Assembly (NCBI GenBank): GCA_024275485.1
Contig: JAJRZA010000059.1
Span: forward strand, 1 to 64,000
Length of the DNA: 64,000 bases
From: Candidatus Krumholzibacteriota bacterium
GTDB taxonomy: Bacteria > Krumholzibacteriota > Krumholzibacteriia > LZORAL124-64-63
Direction of reading: 5' to 3'
Below, in pieces: positions 148 to 16,148 of this stretch (position 1 is the stretch's first letter; each line of letters opens with the position of its first letter). The notes beneath the pieces are model-generated. The model worked only from the letters and a program-made list of their open reading frames with translations, made no database searches and was not told the DNA's origin. The position numbers and the translations under genes are program-made.

Positions 148-1140
148 TTAAAGGTACCAGGCGGCGATGAGGCAGGCGTCGATCACGGCCCAAAGGGTAA
201 GCGCCCGGTACATTTTTTTTTCCTGAGCGGCGCAGTCCAGATCCGGTTCCTGGGCTAGCCAGGTCAGCAGGTGCCCCAGCCAGGCGACCAAACCTGCAGC
301 CGGTAGGATATAGGCCCAACCCGTTCCCCGCTGCCACAACCCCAAAGCCATGGCTGCTCCGGCAAAACCGGCCAGGACGACCGACAACCACAGGGACGGC
401 TTCACTCCCAAAGCCGTGCACAACGTGTGGTCTGATCGACGCCGATCCTCGTCAATCTGATAGATTTGGGTCAGGGGATACATGGAGCCGAAGAGCAGGG
501 CAAACCCCAGCACAAACCAACCTACCCCACCCTGGAAAGCAGTCAGGATTTGTTGGCTGATGGTACCCTGCAGGCCGGGCCAGGGGACAAATCGCCAACC
601 TCCGGCGGTGCAGGCGTTGCTGCCGGCGCCAAAATAGGCCGCCTGACCAGCCAGCAGACCAGCCAGGGTGGTGCCCCCTCCGTAACCCAGCATGTTCACC
701 AACAGATCGAGACCGGGTTTGGCCTTCAGTCTGACCAGGGGATGGGAATACATGACTGAAAGCAGGATGCTGAATCCAACCACCGCTGCAAAGGCCTTTC
801 CTACCACGAACCAGGCCAAGACGGCGCCGAACACCATGAACAGGAAGGCGGCTGCAGCCAGCCAGGAGGGTGGTTGAGGCGGATCCGGAAGATAGGCCAC
901 CGGTCCGGTGTCCTTGTCGTAGGCGCTGTTGAAGGCCAGGGTTCCACCATTGAGAAAGACCACCCAGACCAACCAGGCGGTGGCCAGCAGCGTGACCGAA
1001 GCCGGATTGAACCAGCAGCCGCCACCGCGGGCGGCCGGCGCCGTCAGCATCACCGTAACCATAAACTGGAAAGTGAGGATGGACCACTGGTCGGGCCGGG
1101 TCAGACGCCAGGCGTCTTTGATTTGTCGGGAAAAACTCAC
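148..1140 (-). CDS. UbiA-family prenyltransferase
   Basis: A 330-residue integral membrane protein of the UbiA family, which transfers polyprenyl groups from diphosphates onto aromatic or other acceptors in the cytoplasmic membrane. Visible marks are an Asp-rich loop NSAYDKDTG (residues 71-79), YSHPLVRLK (131-139) and a second Asp-rich loop DEDRRRSDHT (230-239), set between hydrophobic helices. The first loop lacks the classic leading Asp of NDxxDxxxD. The start is GTG, and the GTGA overlaps the stop of the DUF116 gene, so translation is probably coupled. It is the third gene of the operon SpoU methyltransferase - DUF116 - UbiA. The acceptor substrate cannot be read from sequence; no quinone, haem or archaeal-lipid genes lie next to it. 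Confidence 0.85.
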   Translation of the reverse strand: MSFSRQIKDAWRLTRPDQWSILTFQFMVTVMLTAPAARGGGCWFNPASVTLLATAWLVWVVFLNGGTLAFNSAYDKDTGPVAYLPDPPQPPSWLAAAAFLFMVFGAVLAWFVVGKAFAAVVGFSILLSVMYSHPLVRLKAKPGLDLLVNMLGYGGGTTLAGLLAGQAAYFGAGSNACTAGGWRFVPWPGLQGTISQQILTAFQGGVGWFVLGFALLFGSMYPLTQIYQIDEDRRRSDHTLCTALGVKPSLWLSVVLAGFAGAAMALGLWQRGTGWAYILPAAGLVAWLGHLLTWLAQEPDLDCAAQEKKMYRALTLWAVIDACLIAAWYL

Positions 1141-2455: not shown

Positions 2456-3904
2456 ATGGAATCGAAGTCGCAACACAAGGAAATACAGCAGTATATGAAT
2501 CGCATGACAGTGAGCCTGTGTCTGATTGCCAGGGATGAGGAAGCGTCCATCGGGATGACTATCAAATCCGTATTGGCGCTGGTGGACGAAGTGATCGTGG
2601 TTGACACGGGATCAAAAGACAATACCCGAATCATCGCCGAAGGTTATGGAGCCCGGGTTCTGGACGTGACCTGGGAAGACGATTTTTCCCTGGCACGCAA
2701 CGCTTGCCTGACCGAGGCCCTCAGCGATTGGATCCTGGTTCTGGATGCCGACGAGTTTCTCCAGCCGGTTCGGCCTGTGGAGTTCCAGGGGCTTCTGCAC
2801 GATCCCACCGCAGCCGGTTACTGCCTGCGCATGGCCAGTCCTGTGGGGGAGGAGGCCAGCCGCAACCCCACCATGATCCGTTTATTCCGCAATGATCCGG
2901 AGATTCGCTACCGTTATCCCATCTTTGAACAGATCAGTGATAGTCTCAACTGGTGGGCCGAAAAAAAGGGCCTGCAAGTCAAGGACACCGATCTGACGGT
3001 GGTTCACGAAGGTGGCCACCAGACCAACCTGGTCCGCAAGCGTCAGCGCAACCAGCGCATCCTGCACAAGGCCATGGCCGAGTTCCCCATTGAACCCTAC
3101 TTCCCATACAAGATGGGATGTGCGGGCATTCAAACTCTTGATGACGAGGTCTTGCCCACCGCGGGATTGACCACGGCTCTGGGGCATTTGCACACGGCCT
3201 GGCTGCGCCTCGAAAGCAGGGACCCACAGCATTTGAGAACCCAACGCTGGTTGCCCGATCTGGGAATCAAATCCTCGTCCGGGCTGTTGGCCCTGGAAAG
3301 GGTAGACGAAGCCCGCAAACTCATCCACCTGGTGGGAGAGCATTTTCCCAACGATCCGCGGGTGATTTTGCAAACAGCGGTGGCGGAAATCAGATATTTG
3401 GCATTGAATTGCGATGAAATGAACCCTGATGAATCCCGGAAACAGGAATCCTTGATAATCTTCAAACTGAAGGAGTTGCTGGGCAGGGCCCCTGATCCCG
3501 ATGGGTTTGCCATCGACCGGCGGGTTCTGGACCTTTATCCCTTGCGCTATCTGGGAGAGTTGGCTCTTCTCGGTGGGCACGTCAGTGAAGCGGTTGGTTA
3601 TTTTGAGCAGGCGCTCAGCCTGGATCCCGACTATTCTTTTGCCTGGTTGGGCATGGCCGAATGCTCTCGCTTTGCGGGAGACAACAAGCGTGCCCTGAAA
3701 CTTTATTTGCGGACAATAACCGAGAACGAATGGAACCACCGGGGCTGGTTGCGCGGGTGCGACTTGATGAAGGAAATGGAATTCCAGGACAACGCCGCCA
3801 GTTGGTGGCGTAGGGTGACGACTCAATTCCCTGAGCACCCGACCTTGAAACAAGCTGAACATCAAGCCCACGAAAGATCGCGCCCATTGACTCCGGTCGG
3901 TTGA
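2456..3904 (+). CDS. Family 2 glycosyltransferase with C-terminal TPR region
   Basis: A 482-residue protein whose N-terminal ~110 residues are a GT-A fold family 2 glycosyltransferase of the 'glycosyl transferase with TPR' kind. It starts TVSLCLIARDEE, has VVDTGSKDNT for nucleotide-sugar binding and the DxD metal site LDADE (about 96-100). A long helical remainder includes a clear TPR near the end (EAVGYFEQALSLDPDYSFAW). Upstream TTG codons allow a longer frame, but ATG 2456 is preceded by AAAGGGA at good spacing; ATG 2495 is also possible. The donor and acceptor are unknown; cell-surface glycan assembly is the family inference. Confidence 0.85.
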   Translation: MESKSQHKEIQQYMNRMTVSLCLIARDEEASIGMTIKSVLALVDEVIVVDTGSKDNTRIIAEGYGARVLDVTWEDDFSLARNACLTEALSDWILVLDADEFLQPVRPVEFQGLLHDPTAAGYCLRMASPVGEEASRNPTMIRLFRNDPEIRYRYPIFEQISDSLNWWAEKKGLQVKDTDLTVVHEGGHQTNLVRKRQRNQRILHKAMAEFPIEPYFPYKMGCAGIQTLDDEVLPTAGLTTALGHLHTAWLRLESRDPQHLRTQRWLPDLGIKSSSGLLALERVDEARKLIHLVGEHFPNDPRVILQTAVAEIRYLALNCDEMNPDESRKQESLIIFKLKELLGRAPDPDGFAIDRRVLDLYPLRYLGELALLGGHVSEAVGYFEQALSLDPDYSFAWLGMAECSRFAGDNKRALKLYLRTITENEWNHRGWLRGCDLMKEMEFQDNAASWWRRVTTQFPEHPTLKQAEHQAHERSRPLTPVG

Positions 3905-5375: not shown

Positions 5376-6446
5376 ATGCTCGGTGCCAAGAACGTGATGG
5401 TTATCGGAACCGGTACCATCGGGGAACCCCTGATCGGACTGCTTTGCCACTTCAGGGCCCAGCTGGGCATCGACGAGGTTTTGTTCCACAAACGCACTCC
5501 TCTGCTGACGGATCGCTCAAAGGTTCAAAACCTGTTGAAACGCGGTGCCCGTCTGGTGACGGATCCGGATCGGGTGGATCAATTCGAAAAAATGGGCCTG
5601 CGGGTGGACTACACCACCGACGAGGCCATGGAAGCCTGCCGGGTGGTCATCGACTGCACACCTTCGGGCAATTCCATGAAGGAAAAACTCTACTCCCGTT
5701 TTGAAGACAACACCGACCTGTTCATTGCCCAGGGCAGTGAATTTGGATTCGGTAAGCAATACGCCCGGGGCATAAACGACGAGGTCCTGGTTCCCAGTGA
5801 AGACAAATACCTCCAGGTTGTCAGTTGCAATACGCACAACCTGTCGGTTTTGTTGAACACCTTCGGCATTGACCGGGAGGGACCGAAAAACCTTGTGGAG
5901 GGTCGCTTCGTTTGTCTGCGCCGGAGCAATGATATCAGCCAGGACAGCAACTTCATGCCCAGTCCCCAGGTGGGCGTCCACAAGGACGAGCGCTTCGGCA
6001 CCCACCATGCCCGCGATGCCTGGCACCTCTTCGGTACCCTGGGTCACGACCTGAATATTTTCAGCTCGGCCATGAAGATGAACACCCAGCTGATGCACAT
6101 CATCCAGTATCACCTCAAGGTGGAAAAACCCGTCACCTACGCAGAGTTGGTGGGCCGCGTGGTGGATAACGACCGACTGGCCATCACCTACAAGACCACG
6201 GCCAACAGCATCTTTTCTTTTGGGCGGGATCATGGCTTCTGCGGACGCATTCTGAACCAGTCGGTTATTCCGGTGGAAAGTCTGCACGTCAGCGAAGATG
6301 GTAGGGGAATTTCGGGATTCTGTTTCACGCCCCAGGACGGGAACAGTTTGCTCAGCTCAGTGGCGGCCGCGATTTGGGGTTTGTACCCGGAAACCTACGA
6401 GCGCATTATTCAGTGCCTGAAACCGTATTTCTTCAACGAAGTCTAG
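5376..6446 (+). CDS. Type II (archaeal-type) glyceraldehyde-3-phosphate dehydrogenase-like protein
   Basis: A 356-residue NAD(P)-binding dehydrogenase. The N-terminus has the Rossmann motif GTGTIG (11-16). Then come VIDCTPSG and the catalytic-cysteine segment SCNTHNL with C151, matching the SCNTTGL motif of archaeal phosphorylating GAPDH rather than the SCTTN of ordinary bacterial GAPDH. A later MNTQLMHIIQYH segment resembles the C-terminal substrate-binding part of type II enzymes. Whether it acts on glyceraldehyde-3-phosphate or on another acyl-phosphate/aldehyde cannot be told. It has a good SD (AAGGAG) before the ATG. It is convergent with the next gene; only 8 nt separate the two stops. 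Confidence 0.7.
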   Translation: MLGAKNVMVIGTGTIGEPLIGLLCHFRAQLGIDEVLFHKRTPLLTDRSKVQNLLKRGARLVTDPDRVDQFEKMGLRVDYTTDEAMEACRVVIDCTPSGNSMKEKLYSRFEDNTDLFIAQGSEFGFGKQYARGINDEVLVPSEDKYLQVVSCNTHNLSVLLNTFGIDREGPKNLVEGRFVCLRRSNDISQDSNFMPSPQVGVHKDERFGTHHARDAWHLFGTLGHDLNIFSSAMKMNTQLMHIIQYHLKVEKPVTYAELVGRVVDNDRLAITYKTTANSIFSFGRDHGFCGRILNQSVIPVESLHVSEDGRGISGFCFTPQDGNSLLSSVAAAIWGLYPETYERIIQCLKPYFFNEV

Positions 6447-8048: not shown

Positions 8049-10694
8049 TTATAATCGGGCTTCAGCAGCACGTTCCAGGCTGTATTCGGTAATTTTCAGT
8101 CCAATCATGGTGATATCGTCATCCGCTTCAGGGGTGCCGCTGAACGAGAGCAACTGGTTCTGGAGTTCACTGAAGATGTCATCCACGTTTTTTCCCCGAT
8201 GATCGCGTAGCAGGTCATTCAAGCGATCCTCTCCGTAGTCTTCGTCTCCATCGGGCCCCTTGGTCTCGGTCACTCCGTCGGTGTAGAAAAACACCAGGTC
8301 GCCGGGCTCGAGATGGATTATTTCTTCGTTGTAGGTGCCAAAGTCGAAAGCCCCCAGGGGTAGACCTCCGGCTTCGAGCAATTCCATCCGACCGTCTGCT
8401 CGCATGATAATCGGTGGATTGTGCCCGCCGGAACTGCAAAGCAGGGAGTAATCAGCTGGATCGAAAATTGCCAGAAAGAGGGTGGCGAAATGGGCGGGAT
8501 CGGTGCTGGCATGAATCTGCAAGTTGATTTTCTCCAGCACCAGAGCCGGTGATTCGCAGGTGTCGCAATGGGCCCGCAAGGCGGCCTGCAGGTTGGACGC
8601 CAGAATACTTGCCGGCATGCCCTTGCCGCTGACATCGGCGATGATCAGGGCCAGTTTTCCGTCGCTACGTTCGATGATGTCGTAGTAGTCGCCGGAGACC
8701 AGTTTGCTGGAGATGTTGACCGCTTCGATCTGGATTCCCTCAAAGCGGGGGATGGTTGTAGGCAGCAGGCGCGCCTGGATTTTGCGGGCCATGGCCATCT
8801 CTTCTTCCAGCTTTTGTTTGTTCACTTCTTCTTCGTAGAGACGGGTGTTTTCCACTTGCAGGGCAATCTGACCGGCCACAATGGTCAGCAACTGAATTTC
8901 GTGCACCTGGTATTCTTCCCCACCGGGGCGTTGGGGAAGTCCCACCAAGCCGATCATACGCTCCTGGGTGATCAGGGGAATCAACAACTGCAGGCCGTGG
9001 GCAGCCAGTAGAACCTGTTCCAGATGCCTGGCTTTCAGCTCGGCCTGTTCACGGGTGATCGCCTGGCGACCTTCCAGGGGCTGGGTCTCGGTGGCATCCA
9101 CAAATAACGGTTCGCCGGTGTGGGCCATGCCGGGTCCGAGGGCGGACAGTAGCAGCTCTTCGGGATACTTCACCGGCAGTGGCACCATCCTTAGATTTTC
9201 CTGGTCAGTCTGGTCCATGGGGCGGTTGTCCCTGGCCTGAACACCTTTGATGATTCCGACGAGACCGTATTCAAAAACCGTTTTGTCCTGGCTGGCGAGA
9301 TAAACCACCATGCCAGGCAATTGCAGGACATCGCAAAGGCGTCCCCCGATTTTGGTCAACAACTCGTCACGCTTGATGATACGCGGGATGTCACGGCTGA
9401 AACCTTCGATGAGGGCGGTCATGTTGTCCCGGGCATGATAAAAACTGGAATCGAGACGGGATTGCTGGCGCTGTCTGAGGGGCCATATGGCCGCCGCCAC
9501 GGCCAGCGCGACACCCACTGCCACCAGCGGGCTGGCATAGGGAAAAAGAGCCAGCACCTTGCCGCCCAGCCACCAGACACCACCAAGGTAACCAACCCAG
9601 ACCAGGGCGGTCAGCAGGGCATAAGTAAGACTCTTTTTCAGCAGCAGATCGATTTGCAAAACCTGGTACCGAGCCACGCAATAACCAAAGGAGATTGGGA
9701 TGGCCGCCAGGGGAACCACGCCGAGCCGGGCCAGGGCGGGCTGGAAGGTCAGCTCTTCCATGCCGATTTTGAAAACCAGGAAAGGAATCACTGCCGCCAG
9801 AGTGCCGAAAGTCAGGATGCGCACCCGCTGCCGCATAATGGGATCGCGATAGCTGAAATAACCATGCAGCAGAGCCACCAGGCCAAAGACATAATACAGC
9901 CCCAGGACCATCCAGATGGTGGGGTGGATATGCGCCCCCCGGGCACCGATGAACTGGTCCAATGTGAAACGCAGGTAGAACATCATGGGCATGACGTAAA
10001 GCAGGGGAGTCAGGAACGGATGCCTGGTGAGCATCATCTTGCGAGTGGGGAAAATCAGAAAGAAATGCAGGAACACCGCCGGCAGCATGAAGCGCGCAAA
10101 GGCCCCGATGTTCTGGGTGATGATGGCGCCGAGGTAATAACTGACCTGATTCAGATTGGTCACAAAATACAGGGTGAACGAGAGGCACAGCATGAAGAAC
10201 AAGGCGGCCGGCCGTTCGTTGTCGCTACCCAGATAAACCCAGAACCCAATTCCCAAGTATACCAGGGCCAGCATCAGGTTGACCAGGTAGTCCTGCATGT
10301 TGACCCGGGTGCTGGTCAGGGGCACTTCCACCTGCAGGTGGTTATCGCCACGTTTGATGAGGTAGGGGATGGTTTCGCCCGGACGTTGCTGCCGCAAGGC
10401 ATTGGCCGCCGACTGGGGGGAATCGACGATTCGGTTGGCGATGCCTTCGATCTGGTCACCGGTGCGCAGGGGTGTTGGGGCACCGGAGGAGCGGGGTATG
10501 GTGTCGAGAACTTCGAGGGTGGGGCGGCCGAGCAGCCAGATGGTGCCGTCGCTTGGACGGGCGCGGGTGGCGTCAAAAGCACAAAAAATGGCAACAGCCA
10601 CGACAAAAGCGCCAATGCTGAGATGCATTTGGCGAGACAAGAGCAGCCGGAGAAAACCCGACAGGGGATTGGGGCTAAGCCGTTCAGACGGCAT
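8049..10694 (-). CDS. Membrane PDZ-GAF-PP2C (SpoIIE-type) serine/threonine phosphatase
   Basis: An 881-residue multidomain regulator. Order: one membrane segment (about 22-42); a PDZ-like periplasmic domain (about 60-130, with GDQIEGI); a block of roughly eight membrane helices to about 430; a degenerate GAF domain (about 440-640); a short coiled coil (EEEVNKQKLEEEMAMARKI); and a C-terminal PPM/SpoIIE phosphatase domain. Phosphatase metal-ligand motifs are GDYYD (about 667), ADVSGKGMP (about 683) and DDITMIGL (about 858). Such RsbU-like enzymes dephosphorylate anti-sigma-factor antagonists in partner-switching pathways. No kinase or STAS gene lies in this window, so the target is unknown. Confidence 0.87.
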   Translation of the reverse strand: MPSERLSPNPLSGFLRLLLSRQMHLSIGAFVVAVAIFCAFDATRARPSDGTIWLLGRPTLEVLDTIPRSSGAPTPLRTGDQIEGIANRIVDSPQSAANALRQQRPGETIPYLIKRGDNHLQVEVPLTSTRVNMQDYLVNLMLALVYLGIGFWVYLGSDNERPAALFFMLCLSFTLYFVTNLNQVSYYLGAIITQNIGAFARFMLPAVFLHFFLIFPTRKMMLTRHPFLTPLLYVMPMMFYLRFTLDQFIGARGAHIHPTIWMVLGLYYVFGLVALLHGYFSYRDPIMRQRVRILTFGTLAAVIPFLVFKIGMEELTFQPALARLGVVPLAAIPISFGYCVARYQVLQIDLLLKKSLTYALLTALVWVGYLGGVWWLGGKVLALFPYASPLVAVGVALAVAAAIWPLRQRQQSRLDSSFYHARDNMTALIEGFSRDIPRIIKRDELLTKIGGRLCDVLQLPGMVVYLASQDKTVFEYGLVGIIKGVQARDNRPMDQTDQENLRMVPLPVKYPEELLLSALGPGMAHTGEPLFVDATETQPLEGRQAITREQAELKARHLEQVLLAAHGLQLLIPLITQERMIGLVGLPQRPGGEEYQVHEIQLLTIVAGQIALQVENTRLYEEEVNKQKLEEEMAMARKIQARLLPTTIPRFEGIQIEAVNISSKLVSGDYYDIIERSDGKLALIIADVSGKGMPASILASNLQAALRAHCDTCESPALVLEKINLQIHASTDPAHFATLFLAIFDPADYSLLCSSGGHNPPIIMRADGRMELLEAGGLPLGAFDFGTYNEEIIHLEPGDLVFFYTDGVTETKGPDGDEDYGEDRLNDLLRDHRGKNVDDIFSELQNQLLSFSGTPEADDDITMIGLKITEYSLERAAEARL

Positions 10695-10946: not shown

Positions 10947-12149
10947 ATGGATACCGAAAAACCCAGTAGGCATGGCCATATGGGGCAGGCTGATTCCCTT
11001 TCCGGAGGGTTTTCAGGGATGATCACCGTGGGGGAAGGTCGCACCGAGGTGACCTTGCAGGTCGGCACCCAGGGGATGGATTGTTTTTTGCGGGTCACCG
11101 GCGGTATGGCCCATGTGGGAGCGGTGGCCACCGCCAGCGAGGATCTGGTGCAATTGTCGGTGGTGGGCAACCACAAGGAAGGACCGTTGGCTGAACTGTG
11201 CGCCGGCAACTGGACCAGGCTGACGGGAAATGTTTGCGTGGCCATGGTGGGCATCCACCAGGACCAGGCCACGCCTGCAGAGATTGATGCCATTGTCGAC
11301 AATGTCGGAGCGGGGCTGCAGCGGCTGATGGATCAATGGCGGCAATGGGGGAGTCCTGCCCGGGGTGGCGATGCGGATCTGGAAACGCTGATGATCCGCT
11401 GGTGCCATGAAGCAGCCGGGATCGCCCGGCACTATCATCGTCAAACCGGTGACCTGGCTTTCAAGTATGCCAATGAAGCCGTCACCGAGGCTGATCGTCA
11501 AATCGAAACCCTTTTGCGCGGACGCATCGGCGAGGCTTTTCCTGATGATCTGATTGTCGGCGAGGAGTTCGGTGGACCGGACAAGGGGACCGACCAGCAG
11601 GGGCGGTGCATCTGGCAGATCGATCCCATTGACGGAACTCTCAACTACGCCCTCGGTTTGCCGGACTACTGCACCAGCCTGGCGGTGATGTCGGGCCATA
11701 ATGTGTTGGGGGCCTGTATTCATCAGCCCGCCACCGGTGATACGTTTTCCGCCATGGCGGGGCAAGGCGCTCGTCTCAACGGTGAACCCATTCGGGTTGG
11801 TGCACAGCGGGATCTCAAGGATTCCATCATCAGCCTGCATCTGAAAAAAGATGGTTTGATAATGGGCGATCCGCAGCTATTACACACTCTGCTGGGTGCG
11901 CCCATGAAGGTGCGCCGGTGTGGGGCCGTGGCTTTGGAAATGGCCTGGGTGGCTGCTGGGTTTTATGACCTGTTGCTGGCCAGTTTCCCAGACAGAATTC
12001 ATTTGTGGGATATTGCCGCGGGCCTGTTGCTGATTCAGGAAGCAGGTGGGGTGGCCGTGGATTTCCGGAACCGGCCCTACCGCTTGGAATCACCGGCGAT
12101 GATGGTGGGATCGGCCAAGGTCGCAGGTCAATTGGTGCCGTTGCTCTAG
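10947..12149 (+). CDS. LpdD-like domain fused to inositol monophosphatase-family phosphatase
   Basis: A 400-residue two-domain protein. Residues about 30-130 resemble the LpdD-like family (prenylated-flavin chaperone): GGMAHVGAVATAS (52-64), GNHKEGPLAE (74-83) and GIHQDQATPAEIDAIVDNV (102-120). Residues about 145-400 are an IMPase-family phosphatase with the metal-binding GEEFG (205-209), DPIDGTLNY (226-234) and WDIAAGLLL near 343. It would hydrolyse inositol phosphate, fructose-1,6-bisphosphate or a similar sugar phosphate. I start it at ATG 10947 because GGGAGGG sits just upstream; the frame is open 39 nt further. The gene is convergent with the CHAT-like gene, and the two TAG stops share one CTAG. 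Confidence 0.8.
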   Translation: MDTEKPSRHGHMGQADSLSGGFSGMITVGEGRTEVTLQVGTQGMDCFLRVTGGMAHVGAVATASEDLVQLSVVGNHKEGPLAELCAGNWTRLTGNVCVAMVGIHQDQATPAEIDAIVDNVGAGLQRLMDQWRQWGSPARGGDADLETLMIRWCHEAAGIARHYHRQTGDLAFKYANEAVTEADRQIETLLRGRIGEAFPDDLIVGEEFGGPDKGTDQQGRCIWQIDPIDGTLNYALGLPDYCTSLAVMSGHNVLGACIHQPATGDTFSAMAGQGARLNGEPIRVGAQRDLKDSIISLHLKKDGLIMGDPQLLHTLLGAPMKVRRCGAVALEMAWVAAGFYDLLLASFPDRIHLWDIAAGLLLIQEAGGVAVDFRNRPYRLESPAMMVGSAKVAGQLVPLL

Positions 12150-13495
12150 AGATATTGCAAGGCCAGGGTGCCATAACCGCGGATGCCGTAACTCAACCAC
12201 GCCGGATGATCGGACCCCAACTCCTGGCGTACTTTTCGTGAGGCATTCCAAAGAGCGCCGCCGGTGCTCCAACCATCGGCCAGGCTGTTGTATAGGTAGC
12301 CGGTGAAGATGCGGGCAGGCCGGCTGAACAGGGGAGCCACCGGCCCGACGAAGGTGCTGGCGCCCGCCTTGGTGAAGCGCATTCCCAGCTCGGGCAGGGC
12401 CAGGTAACTGTTGGAAAAGACCAACGGGGGCACTCCGCCACCCGCACCGAGGCTTTCCGGCTCCACGGGCCCGTCATCCAGCAACCAGGGGACTAAAGAT
12501 TGTTCTGACTGCCCGGAGCAGGACGAGGAGCTTTCACCGAACCGGGCGATTTTGGAGATGTTGCTGCCGACCCGGCTCTCACTCAGACCTTCGCGATCGT
12601 ATTTGTCACTCACGGAGTCCAGCAGGGAAGTGATGGGATCCACACCCAGAACTTCGGCTTCCACGCCCATGGCTCCTTCCAGTTCCAGGTCTGCCGGTAC
12701 GTTGACTTCATCGATGAGCTGGTTCATCCAGTACTCGCCGTGGGTGTCTGCCATCATGGCGGGTTCACTTGTGGGGCCGGCAAAGTGGATGGCCTGGTAA
12801 TTTATGCCATGTTCCTTGAGCTGAGCCGGGGTGACGGCCTCTTTGGGAAAATCGAGATTGGCAAGGCTTTGGCCCAGTCGGCCACCTGACAGGGCGCCTT
12901 CGATGGCTTCGGCTTCACGAAAAATGAGGCGGCGGATCGGTTCTTCGGAATGGCCGGGAATAAATAGGATTTCCGGTTGTGCCAGGTCTTCAGGGCGCAG
13001 TTGATCAATGGTGTTGTCCAGGCCGCTCTTACCCTCGTCGCCCACCAGAAAACCGGCGCGCAGACAGCGGGACATCCAGGGTCGTTGTTCGGCAATTCCA
13101 GGAAAGCCGGATGAAGTGGTGGCGGTGCAAATGGGGTGTTTTTCCAGGAGGAATTCCAATCCGTTGTGCAGCCAAACCCAGGGCAGGGAGGCCCATCCTC
13201 CTTCGGTGACGATGTGATAGCCGGTGAGTTGATCGTGGTTTTCCACGCCGATTTCAGGAGTGTTGTCGCCCAATTGATTGTCGGTGGGAGAAAAGGCCTG
13301 GTTGTCGTGTTCACTGATTGCCCGGAACAGGCGTCGTCCCACATCGGACATTTGATCGATAACCTGGGGGCTGTCCAGGCCATGGCGTTTCTGAAGTTCG
13401 TGCAAAGTTCCTGTCAGGTAGGTGGCCTCTTCCATGAGGATGTCAAATTCCTGGCTGGTTTTTGGTGCAGGAAGGATGATATCGATCCAGCGCAT
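12146..13495 (-). CDS. CHAT-fold (caspase-like) protein, catalytic residues apparently lost
   Basis: A 449-residue protein whose layout matches the CHAT clan of caspase-like peptidases. Signs are GGWASLPWVWLHNGLEFLL (99-117, the usual 'LPWELLHDG..FL'), PEILFIPGHSEEPIRRLIFREAEAI, IHFAGPTS (236-243, normally HFAGHG), PPLVFSNSY (356-364, normally LVFLNAC), and the closing 'TKAGASTFVGPVAP' and 'SRKVRQEL' segments. The catalytic His position is Pro (241) and the Cys position is Tyr (364) by my reading, so proteolysis is unlikely. The ATG at 13495 has GGAGG upstream; a longer frame to 13546 lacks support. It may be a scaffold or a decayed peptidase. Confidence 0.6.
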   Translation of the reverse strand: MRWIDIILPAPKTSQEFDILMEEATYLTGTLHELQKRHGLDSPQVIDQMSDVGRRLFRAISEHDNQAFSPTDNQLGDNTPEIGVENHDQLTGYHIVTEGGWASLPWVWLHNGLEFLLEKHPICTATTSSGFPGIAEQRPWMSRCLRAGFLVGDEGKSGLDNTIDQLRPEDLAQPEILFIPGHSEEPIRRLIFREAEAIEGALSGGRLGQSLANLDFPKEAVTPAQLKEHGINYQAIHFAGPTSEPAMMADTHGEYWMNQLIDEVNVPADLELEGAMGVEAEVLGVDPITSLLDSVSDKYDREGLSESRVGSNISKIARFGESSSSCSGQSEQSLVPWLLDDGPVEPESLGAGGGVPPLVFSNSYLALPELGMRFTKAGASTFVGPVAPLFSRPARIFTGYLYNSLADGWSTGGALWNASRKVRQELGSDHPAWLSYGIRGYGTLALQYL

Positions 13496-13662
13496 GAAGG
13501 CCTCCGCTTTCCGGTTTGTTACGGTCAAGGCAAAAATTGGGACCAAACGTTGGTTTCAACTCAATATTCGGCATCTGAACCGGGAACTGAAGTTGTAACC
13601 GTTGGTTCTTGGGGGAGGGAATTGCAGAAAACGTGCCGACGGAGGGACAAATTTCGGGATAC

Positions 13663-14468: not shown

Positions 14469-14489
14469 AACCATGAAGTGAGCACAGGG

Positions 14490-15575
14490 ATGTCTGCAAA
14501 ATCCGCCATGTTTAAAGGATTACAATCCGTAGCTGGATGGGGTTCGGCCCTCTTGGTGGTGATGTTGGTCACCGCCGCAGTGGGCTGGGCCCAAGACGAG
14601 CCCCCGACCACCCTGGAGGGCGATCAATATCTCGATCCACTGGCTTATATGCGGGTGGACAGAAGTGCTGGCGATTTGTCCCTGACGGTGCGTCATCAGG
14701 CCACGGGTGAAACCCGGATGATTGAAGGTCGCTTGCTTTTGGCGGACAGCAAGGAAATGTACCTGCGCTCGGCCACCGTCGCTACGGTGCTGAAGGCAGG
14801 GCGATTTTGGCAAGGCGGTTTGCGTCGATTGACCATCAAAATCGGTTCCAGGAATTTTGTTTTGACCGGAAATAACCGCCTGGTGGTCACCGATGAAGGG
14901 GAGGCCCTGTTGCCTGTGCCGGTGCTGGACCATGCGGGTGATTTGTGGCTGCCCATGACGCTGCTCGAAACAGTGATCGGACCGCAGATCCAGGAGCGGG
15001 TATCCTGGGATCCGGTGGCGCGTCGTCTGGATCTGGGCAGTGCGGAATACAACGTGACCGGCTTGACGGTGGAGCGCCTCGGCCGCAGCACCGCGGTGCA
15101 CATCCAGTGCAGTTCGCCCCTGGGATATCGGGCCAGCAGTCCCGAGCCGGGCGTCATCGAAATGAAAATCTATGGTGCGGAGGTCAATACGGCGCGGGTG
15201 GCAAGACAAGGTCGCCGGGGATTGGTTCTGGGAGCTCGCAGCTATCAACACAGCGATTACGCCATCGTGAATATTCGTGTGGATGACCTGGTGGGCCATT
15301 TTCGGACCTACACTGCCGACGGTGGTGCCGAAATCGTGCTGGTTCTGGAAGAAGAACAGGTGTCGGCCATGCCTTCGCCGGTGCCGCACGGGCGTGCCCG
15401 GGTGAATATTGAGCAGGGCCTCGTGGACATGACCAACACCATCCGGGTGCGCACCGTGGTGATAGATCCCGGACACGGAGGACACGATGTCGGCGCGGTT
15501 GGCGGTCAAGGTATTCTGGAAAAGAACGTGAACCTGGGAGTGGCCAAGGAACTGCAACGGTATCTGCGTCGGTAG
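14490..15575 (+). CDS. N-acetylmuramoyl-L-alanine amidase, N-terminal part (interrupted by in-frame TAG)
   Basis: This is the first part of an exported peptidoglycan amidase that cleaves the bond between N-acetylmuramic acid and L-alanine. A signal peptide (about 1-35, ending near GWAQ) is followed by a copper-amine-oxidase-N-like/AMIN-like wall-binding region. The Amidase_3 domain then starts with VVIDPGHGGHDVGAVGG (zinc His). The frame stops at TAG 15573-15575, just after ELQRYLRR, and resumes in the same frame with the rest of the domain. This product alone lacks the second zinc His and the catalytic Glu. ATG 14490 is chosen; GTG 14478 is possible. The longer minus-strand frame over the same bases is a shadow. 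Confidence 0.8.
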   Translation: MSAKSAMFKGLQSVAGWGSALLVVMLVTAAVGWAQDEPPTTLEGDQYLDPLAYMRVDRSAGDLSLTVRHQATGETRMIEGRLLLADSKEMYLRSATVATVLKAGRFWQGGLRRLTIKIGSRNFVLTGNNRLVVTDEGEALLPVPVLDHAGDLWLPMTLLETVIGPQIQERVSWDPVARRLDLGSAEYNVTGLTVERLGRSTAVHIQCSSPLGYRASSPEPGVIEMKIYGAEVNTARVARQGRRGLVLGARSYQHSDYAIVNIRVDDLVGHFRTYTADGGAEIVLVLEEEQVSAMPSPVPHGRARVNIEQGLVDMTNTIRVRTVVIDPGHGGHDVGAVGGQGILEKNVNLGVAKELQRYLRR

Positions 15576-15587
15576 AGCGACCTGGAA

Positions 15588-16148
15588 GTGGTCCTTACCC
15601 GTGAGCGCGACCAGTACATGGAGCTGGCCGACCGGGCTGAAATCGCCAACGGAAACCAAGGAGATCTTTTCATATCCCTGCATTGTAACAGCTGGTTCAA
15701 CGATGGCGCCCAGGGTATCGAAACCTTCTTTCTGTCGCCCGCGGAAAGCGATTGGGCCAAGAGTGTGGAAGCCGCTGAAAACAGTGCCGGCCAGGAACCG
15801 GGGGACGTGGAATTCATCGTCTGGGAGCTGGTCCAGAATCGTTTCATCAGCAGCAGCAGCCAACTTGCCGAGGTGCTGCAAAAAGAGGTCTGTGAAGATT
15901 TGACCCTGGAAAACCGGGGAGTGCGCCAGGCCGGTTTCCGGGTTTTGGTGGGAGCGTATATGCCGGCGGTTCTGGTGGAAATGGGCTTTTTGACCCATCC
16001 GGAAGAAGAAAGACGTTTGGGAGACTCGTCCTATCAGCGTCGAATGGCCAGGGCTTTGGGCAAGGCCATTGTGGAGTACAGCCGACAGATGGCTGCCACC
16101 GTGCCTGATTTCGCCGATGCAGTGGAAAAGGAGGGCGATGATGAGTGA
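15588..16148 (+). CDS. N-acetylmuramoyl-L-alanine amidase, C-terminal part (same frame, after TAG)
   Basis: This is the remainder of the Amidase_3 domain, in the same frame as the upstream half. It has EVVLTRERD, ADRAEIANG, the second zinc site FISLHCNSW and the catalytic-Glu segment AVLVEMGFLTHPEEE. Coding sequence is intact from 15576; GTG 15588 is only the first possible start after the stop and has no Shine-Dalgarno. Joined to the upstream half it makes a normal ~550-residue amidase, so one substitution (for example CAG to TAG) explains the break. The downstream GerMN gene overlaps its end by 8 nt, so the operon context is intact. Confidence 0.7.
   Translation: MVLTRERDQYMELADRAEIANGNQGDLFISLHCNSWFNDGAQGIETFFLSPAESDWAKSVEAAENSAGQEPGDVEFIVWELVQNRFISSSSQLAEVLQKEVCEDLTLENRGVRQAGFRVLVGAYMPAVLVEMGFLTHPEEERRLGDSSYQRRMARALGKAIVEYSRQMAATVPDFADAVEKEGDDE

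Follow-up and report, generated by a model that had tools for sequence, protein, structure and literature searches.

A 400-codon reading frame in the 64,000-nucleotide stretch of DNA analysed here (the window) probably represents two neighbouring genes whose frames have been joined by one base, the first encoding a chaperone of prenylated FMN (prFMN) from the LpdD family, with MqnL as its likely client, and the second a separate metabolic phosphatase. Proteins of the LpdD family are small and deliver the prenylated-flavin cofactor to decarboxylases. Among related genomes the LpdD-like gene is kept or lost with the menaquinone (vitamin K) pathway and not with the phosphatase beside it, about four independent losses being discernible.

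Family membership of the two halves

The first-pass annotation had taken the frame, which has a purine-rich element, GGGAGG, upstream of its ATG at 10947, for an LpdD-like domain followed by a complete inositol monophosphatase (IMPase), and profile searches bear this out for both parts (Table 1). PF21758 is matched by residues 30-130 at 65.9 bits against a cut-off of 27 (E 3.4e-18), and PF00459 by residues 173-391 at 162.8 bits, also against 27 (E 1.5e-47), the latter domain being complete. The motifs on which the LpdD-like reading had leaned, GGMAHVG (52-58), NHKEGP (75-80) and GIHQDQ (102-107), are all present, as are the phosphatase motifs GEEF (205-208), DPIDGT (226-231) and LWDIAAG (353-359).

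Table 1. Features of the fused frame and its immediate neighbours (window positions)
Feature	Position	Strand	Remarks
Fused ORF, LpdD-like domain + IMPase-family phosphatase	10947..12149	+	open 400 codons, 400 aa
LpdD-like domain (PF21758, PAC_bac), residues 30-130	11034..11336	+	profile, phmmer, model, fold search
GGMAHVG loop	11100..11120	+	His56 aligns with LpdD His35 (metal ligand)
NHKEGP loop	11169..11186	+	His76 / Glu78 align with LpdD His61 / Asp63 (metal ligands)
GIHQDQ motif	11250..11267	+	conserved in family
ATG where relatives begin a separate phosphatase gene	11345..11347	+	here out of frame with fused ORF
GGGGG run at junction	11347..11351	+	a length change of one base turns two overlapping genes into one fused frame, or back
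IMPase-family phosphatase domain (PF00459), residues 173-391	11463..12119	+	profile, PDB phmmer, motifs
SpoIIE-type phosphatase with GAF domain	8049..10694	-	fixed left neighbour of slot across family
CHAT-like protein	12146..13546	-	fixed right neighbour of slot

With phmmer against the PDB, the match of the N-terminal part to the crystal structures of LpdD was weak (E 0.0027). Structure prediction, which had been suggested as a check, was more telling. An AlphaFold2 model of residues 1-142, built from 11 sequences comprising that of the window and related ones, has a mean pLDDT of 86.2, and in a PDB fold search its six best matches are LpdD chains (E 3.6e-8 to 2.6e-6; TM 0.69-0.71 by query length). 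Eukaryotic proteasome-assembly chaperones come next, a similarity that the LpdD paper itself reports (PMC10865409). The metal ligands of LpdD are H35, H61 and D63 (PMC10865409), and the residues aligned with them, His56, His76 and Glu78, are invariant across the aligned related proteins, the replacement of Asp63 by Glu being a conservative change. An alignment mixing the relatives with LpdD was too divergent, and a tighter one was used instead; a search with it recovered 11 loci with close relatives, including four from Candidatus Krumholzibacteriia and one from Candidatus Latescibacterota. A contig search with the single N-terminal sequence gave no matches. Judged by the Pfam match, the fold search headed by LpdD and the invariant aligned metal-site residues, the N-terminal half is a member of the LpdD family.

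Its closest known counterpart, LpdD of Lactobacillus plantarum (PDB 8po5, 8pzh, 8pzo, 8p4w; PMC10865409), shares the fold at about 21% identity, together with the GIH motif and, Asp63 apart, the metal-site residues. That protein is free-standing and small, is cotranscribed with a UbiX homologue and is linked to a gallate decarboxylase (PMC10865409). Unlike it, the LpdD-like gene of the window shares a slot with a phosphatase gene, lies away from UbiD, and has a menaquinone decarboxylase as its probable client. Adjacency of the LpdD kind to UbiX or UbiD is not seen, as the first-pass annotation had observed for the surroundings of the frame, both genes being on another contig (C67); such adjacency is an association of LpdD and not what defines it.

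The C-terminal part finds SuhB-type inositol monophosphatases strongly by phmmer against the PDB (E 4e-33), and shares with the inositol monophosphatase / SuhB family (PF00459; PDB 9j90, 8wdq, 6ib7) the GEE, DPIDGT and WD motifs. It stays under the cut-off of every functional NCBIfam model that it touched, with 129.6 of 275 bits for the HisN equivalog (TIGR02067), 110 of 332 bits for SuhB-type and 75 of 229 bits for CysQ. It is most likely a housekeeping small-molecule phosphatase.

The junction and its surroundings

In all 15 related genomes in which the junction was read, the LpdD-like gene has its own stop codon and the phosphatase its own ATG in a different frame; the gene ends overlap or touch in most of them, and in G021 there is a short gap. 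The two genes are adjacent in many genera and, since the phosphatase gene adjoins or overlaps the LpdD-like gene, their layout suggests that they are probably co-translated in the relatives. In the window the ATG at which relatives start the phosphatase is displaced by one base from the phosphatase frame. With one G fewer, the LpdD-like protein would end ...RQWGVLPGVAMRIWKR and the phosphatase would begin MGSPARGGDADLE, which is the layout of the relatives. As this ATG is retained out of frame and a change of one G restores the common arrangement, the fusion is a one-base event private to the assembly. The extra base at the GGGGG run could reflect either a genuine mutation or an error in the consensus, and the fusion itself is ordinary, or possibly an artefact. 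Several fused homologues in a survey of genomes were to count in favour of the first-pass reading; none turned up, and the 15 separate junctions rule out fusion as a general arrangement. What appeared to be a two-domain enzyme is thereby corrected to two neighbouring genes.

The slot that the two genes occupy lies within a long conserved block with genes for a glycosyltransferase, a 5'-nucleotidase-family protein, smpB, an amidase, a racemase-family protein, RNase PH and a Ham1-family protein, the smpB and amidase names being given from sequence and not from a search. Relatives on plasmids were looked for and none were found. An amidase-like gene (N-acetylmuramoyl-L-alanine) at 14478-16145 (+) has an in-frame TAG at 15573-15575, the codon there in relatives being GAA or GAG (Glu); this is a single-base G to T difference with the frame open beyond it, and is either a nonsense change or a consensus error. 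The contig thus departs from its relatives in at least one further isolated and disruptive respect. In a comparison with G003 covering roughly the first 20 kb of the window, no frame shift was found besides that at the junction.

Presence and absence with the menaquinone pathway

The counts that follow cover 38 genomes of the family, drawn on within a search of the class that comprised 80 genomes, the same 80 being returned phylum-wide. PF21758 is matched in 25 of the 38, every one of which has MqnA/D of the futalosine pathway to menaquinone and 21 of which have UbiD; 13 lack the match, and nine of these are without MqnA/D, UbiD and UbiX altogether. By Fisher's test across the 38 genomes, with relatedness ignored, the domain is associated with MqnA/D (p 4e-6) and with UbiD (p 7e-5); the corresponding values for the phosphatase, relatedness again being ignored, are 0.26 and 0.74. 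A tree built from the SpoIIE-type neighbour shows the state of the domain changing about four times, with MqnA/D going in the same direction as the domain in an average of 3.8 of the 4 independent pairs. Because there are just four such pairs and about four losses, significance at 0.05 is out of reach of a tree-based test.

Individual genomes add detail. Both genes are gone and the flanks of the slot intact in G017, G023, G026, G032 and G077. G012 and G021, members of one genus, align on both sides of the slot with 76-85% identity; in G012 the LpdD-like gene is shorter by about 300 bp, its start and end remaining as an in-frame stub ahead of a phosphatase gene that is intact (L056, about 3650-3760). 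A remnant of the LpdD-like tail likewise precedes an intact phosphatase in G008, which has UbiX, no UbiD, and one MqnA/D match plus one degenerate copy. G002, also scored as lacking PF21758, retains part of the domain where a contig ends, with UbiX and an MqnA/D fragment present and UbiD not found. UbiD, UbiX and MqnA/D are all present in G030, which has no PF21758 match and in whose assembly neither the slot nor the CHAT-like gene was found; in G006 the pathway is present with no LpdD-like match, the CHAT-like gene being truncated and the slot missing or disrupted near a contig end. The domain occurs with no UbiD detected in G013, G018, G020 and G078, of which G013 is 96% complete and the other three are incomplete (65-83%). 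UbiD and MqnA/D also occur, with no LpdD-like gene, in other families of the class, and among 14 control genomes the domain was found in Methanosarcina acetivorans only.

The phosphatase follows a different course. It is present with no PF21758 match in G008, G012, G014 and G025, none of which has UbiD, and the last three also lack UbiX and MqnA/D; conversely, nine genomes have the LpdD-like gene with no phosphatase of the window's clade detected, contig ends possibly being behind some of these. The suggestion that the phosphatase acts with the LpdD-like domain on prenyl or flavin phosphates finds no support in this distribution, and a role in making dimethylallyl phosphate or in acting on prFMN is set aside since the phosphatase persists in genomes without UbiD, UbiX and MqnA/D. 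Most simply read, this pattern places the LpdD-like gene in the service of the prFMN/menaquinone system and the phosphatase outside it. In family f5, phosphatase relatives with about 40% identity occur at three loci (L019, L020, L021) that have no LpdD-like gene; the frame after them is large, membrane-protein-like and unrelated.

A putative prFMN chaperone for MqnL

LpdD is a prFMNH2-binding protein known to act on UbiD (PMC10865409). The tie of the LpdD-like domain to prFMN-dependent decarboxylases that had been put forward for the window holds up on the Pfam match, the fold search, the conserved residues and the co-occurrence with futalosine-pathway genes, UbiD and UbiX. The sole UbiD found in the genome lies on contig C67 alongside UbiE, UbiX and UbiA, and scores 603 bits against NCBIfam TIGR03701 'menaquinone biosynthesis decarboxylase' (cut-off 496), marking it as MqnL, the candidate client. 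For the final steps of the futalosine pathway, MqnP has been proposed as the UbiA-like enzyme, MqnL as the UbiD-like and MqnM as the UbiX-like one (PMC4746308). By analogy with LpdD, reduced prFMN made by UbiX would be bound by the LpdD-like domain through the loops bearing the His-His-Glu metal site, and then handed to apo-MqnL, helping its loading. We infer that this single UbiD, the futalosine-route decarboxylase, is the most likely client; the C-terminal half, from the inositol-monophosphatase superfamily, would be a metabolic phosphatase in its own right, and a fused chain, should it exist at all and be functional, would be peculiar to this assembly. As UbiD-containing families of the class manage without the domain, MqnL does not always need an LpdD-like protein, which would be an aid and not a general requirement.

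The wider proposal that futalosine menaquinone synthesis in some bacteria uses a dedicated LpdD-type prFMN chaperone for MqnL, visible as a gene kept or lost with the pathway, is one towards which the balance tips slightly. LpdD has been described as only rarely found alongside UbiD, the known case being a catabolic gallate decarboxylase, and in the literature searched no report linking LpdD to menaquinone was found. Another UbiD accessory, the prFMN maturase PhdC (PMC13040415), activates E. coli UbiD on co-expression with an effect similar to that of LpdD co-expression; it is described there as a distant HpaC-like flavin reductase member that oxidises the prFMN radical, and its fold differs from that of the LpdD-like domain. 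If LpdD-like proteins serve MqnL, chaperone-assisted prFMN loading would reach into respiratory quinone biosynthesis, and the lineages losing the pathway would be a natural experiment.

Other readings merit consideration. The domain could serve the menaquinone pathway in another capacity, for example in binding a naphthoate intermediate or in decarboxylase assembly, as it is the pathway as a whole that the domain accompanies, MqnA/D more cleanly than UbiD, and the families that have UbiD and lack the domain fit this too. It is nevertheless unlikely, given the conservation of the metal-site histidines, acidic residue and GIH motif of LpdD, and given that much of the discrepancy between the UbiD and MqnA/D counts may come from assembly gaps. 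Somewhat less probable again is that the link to the pathway is coincidental, the LpdD-like gene having some other accessory function and having disappeared from the same lineages that shed menaquinone synthesis. The small number of losses, with the ceiling it sets on tree-based testing, leaves room for this, as does the fact that the LpdD-like gene adjoins no pathway gene; against it, the direction agrees in nearly every independent pair, G012 has lost most of the LpdD-like gene with its neighbour retained, and action of LpdD on UbiD is known (PMC10865409).

It is highly improbable that the fused chain works as a true enzyme of two domains, its LpdD-like part handing a prenyl or flavin phosphate over to the phosphatase. 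The frame is single and open, both domains are intact, the full-chain model has a short, low-confidence linker at residues 135-140, and the two genes are neighbours in many genera; yet there is no second fused case, either gene occurs without the other, the phosphatase is kept where UbiD, UbiX and MqnA/D are all missing, and the fusion hangs on one base at the GGGGG run. An LpdD-family chaperone beside an independent phosphatase is the reading we prefer.

The UbiA-type gene to which attention had been drawn in the window (151-1140, -) is indeed there. Its product, at 32.8 against a PF01040 cut-off of 34.2, is below the Pfam threshold and is not the prenyltransferase of the pathway, an MqnP-like UbiA being encoded beside UbiD and UbiX on the other contig; DUF116 and SpoU-methylase genes follow the UbiA-like gene of the window. 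A further window gene, at 5376-6446 (+), has no Pfam match and is distantly like type II glyceraldehyde-3-phosphate dehydrogenase (75 bits against a cut-off of 185), and its protein is 88-90% identical between related genomes.
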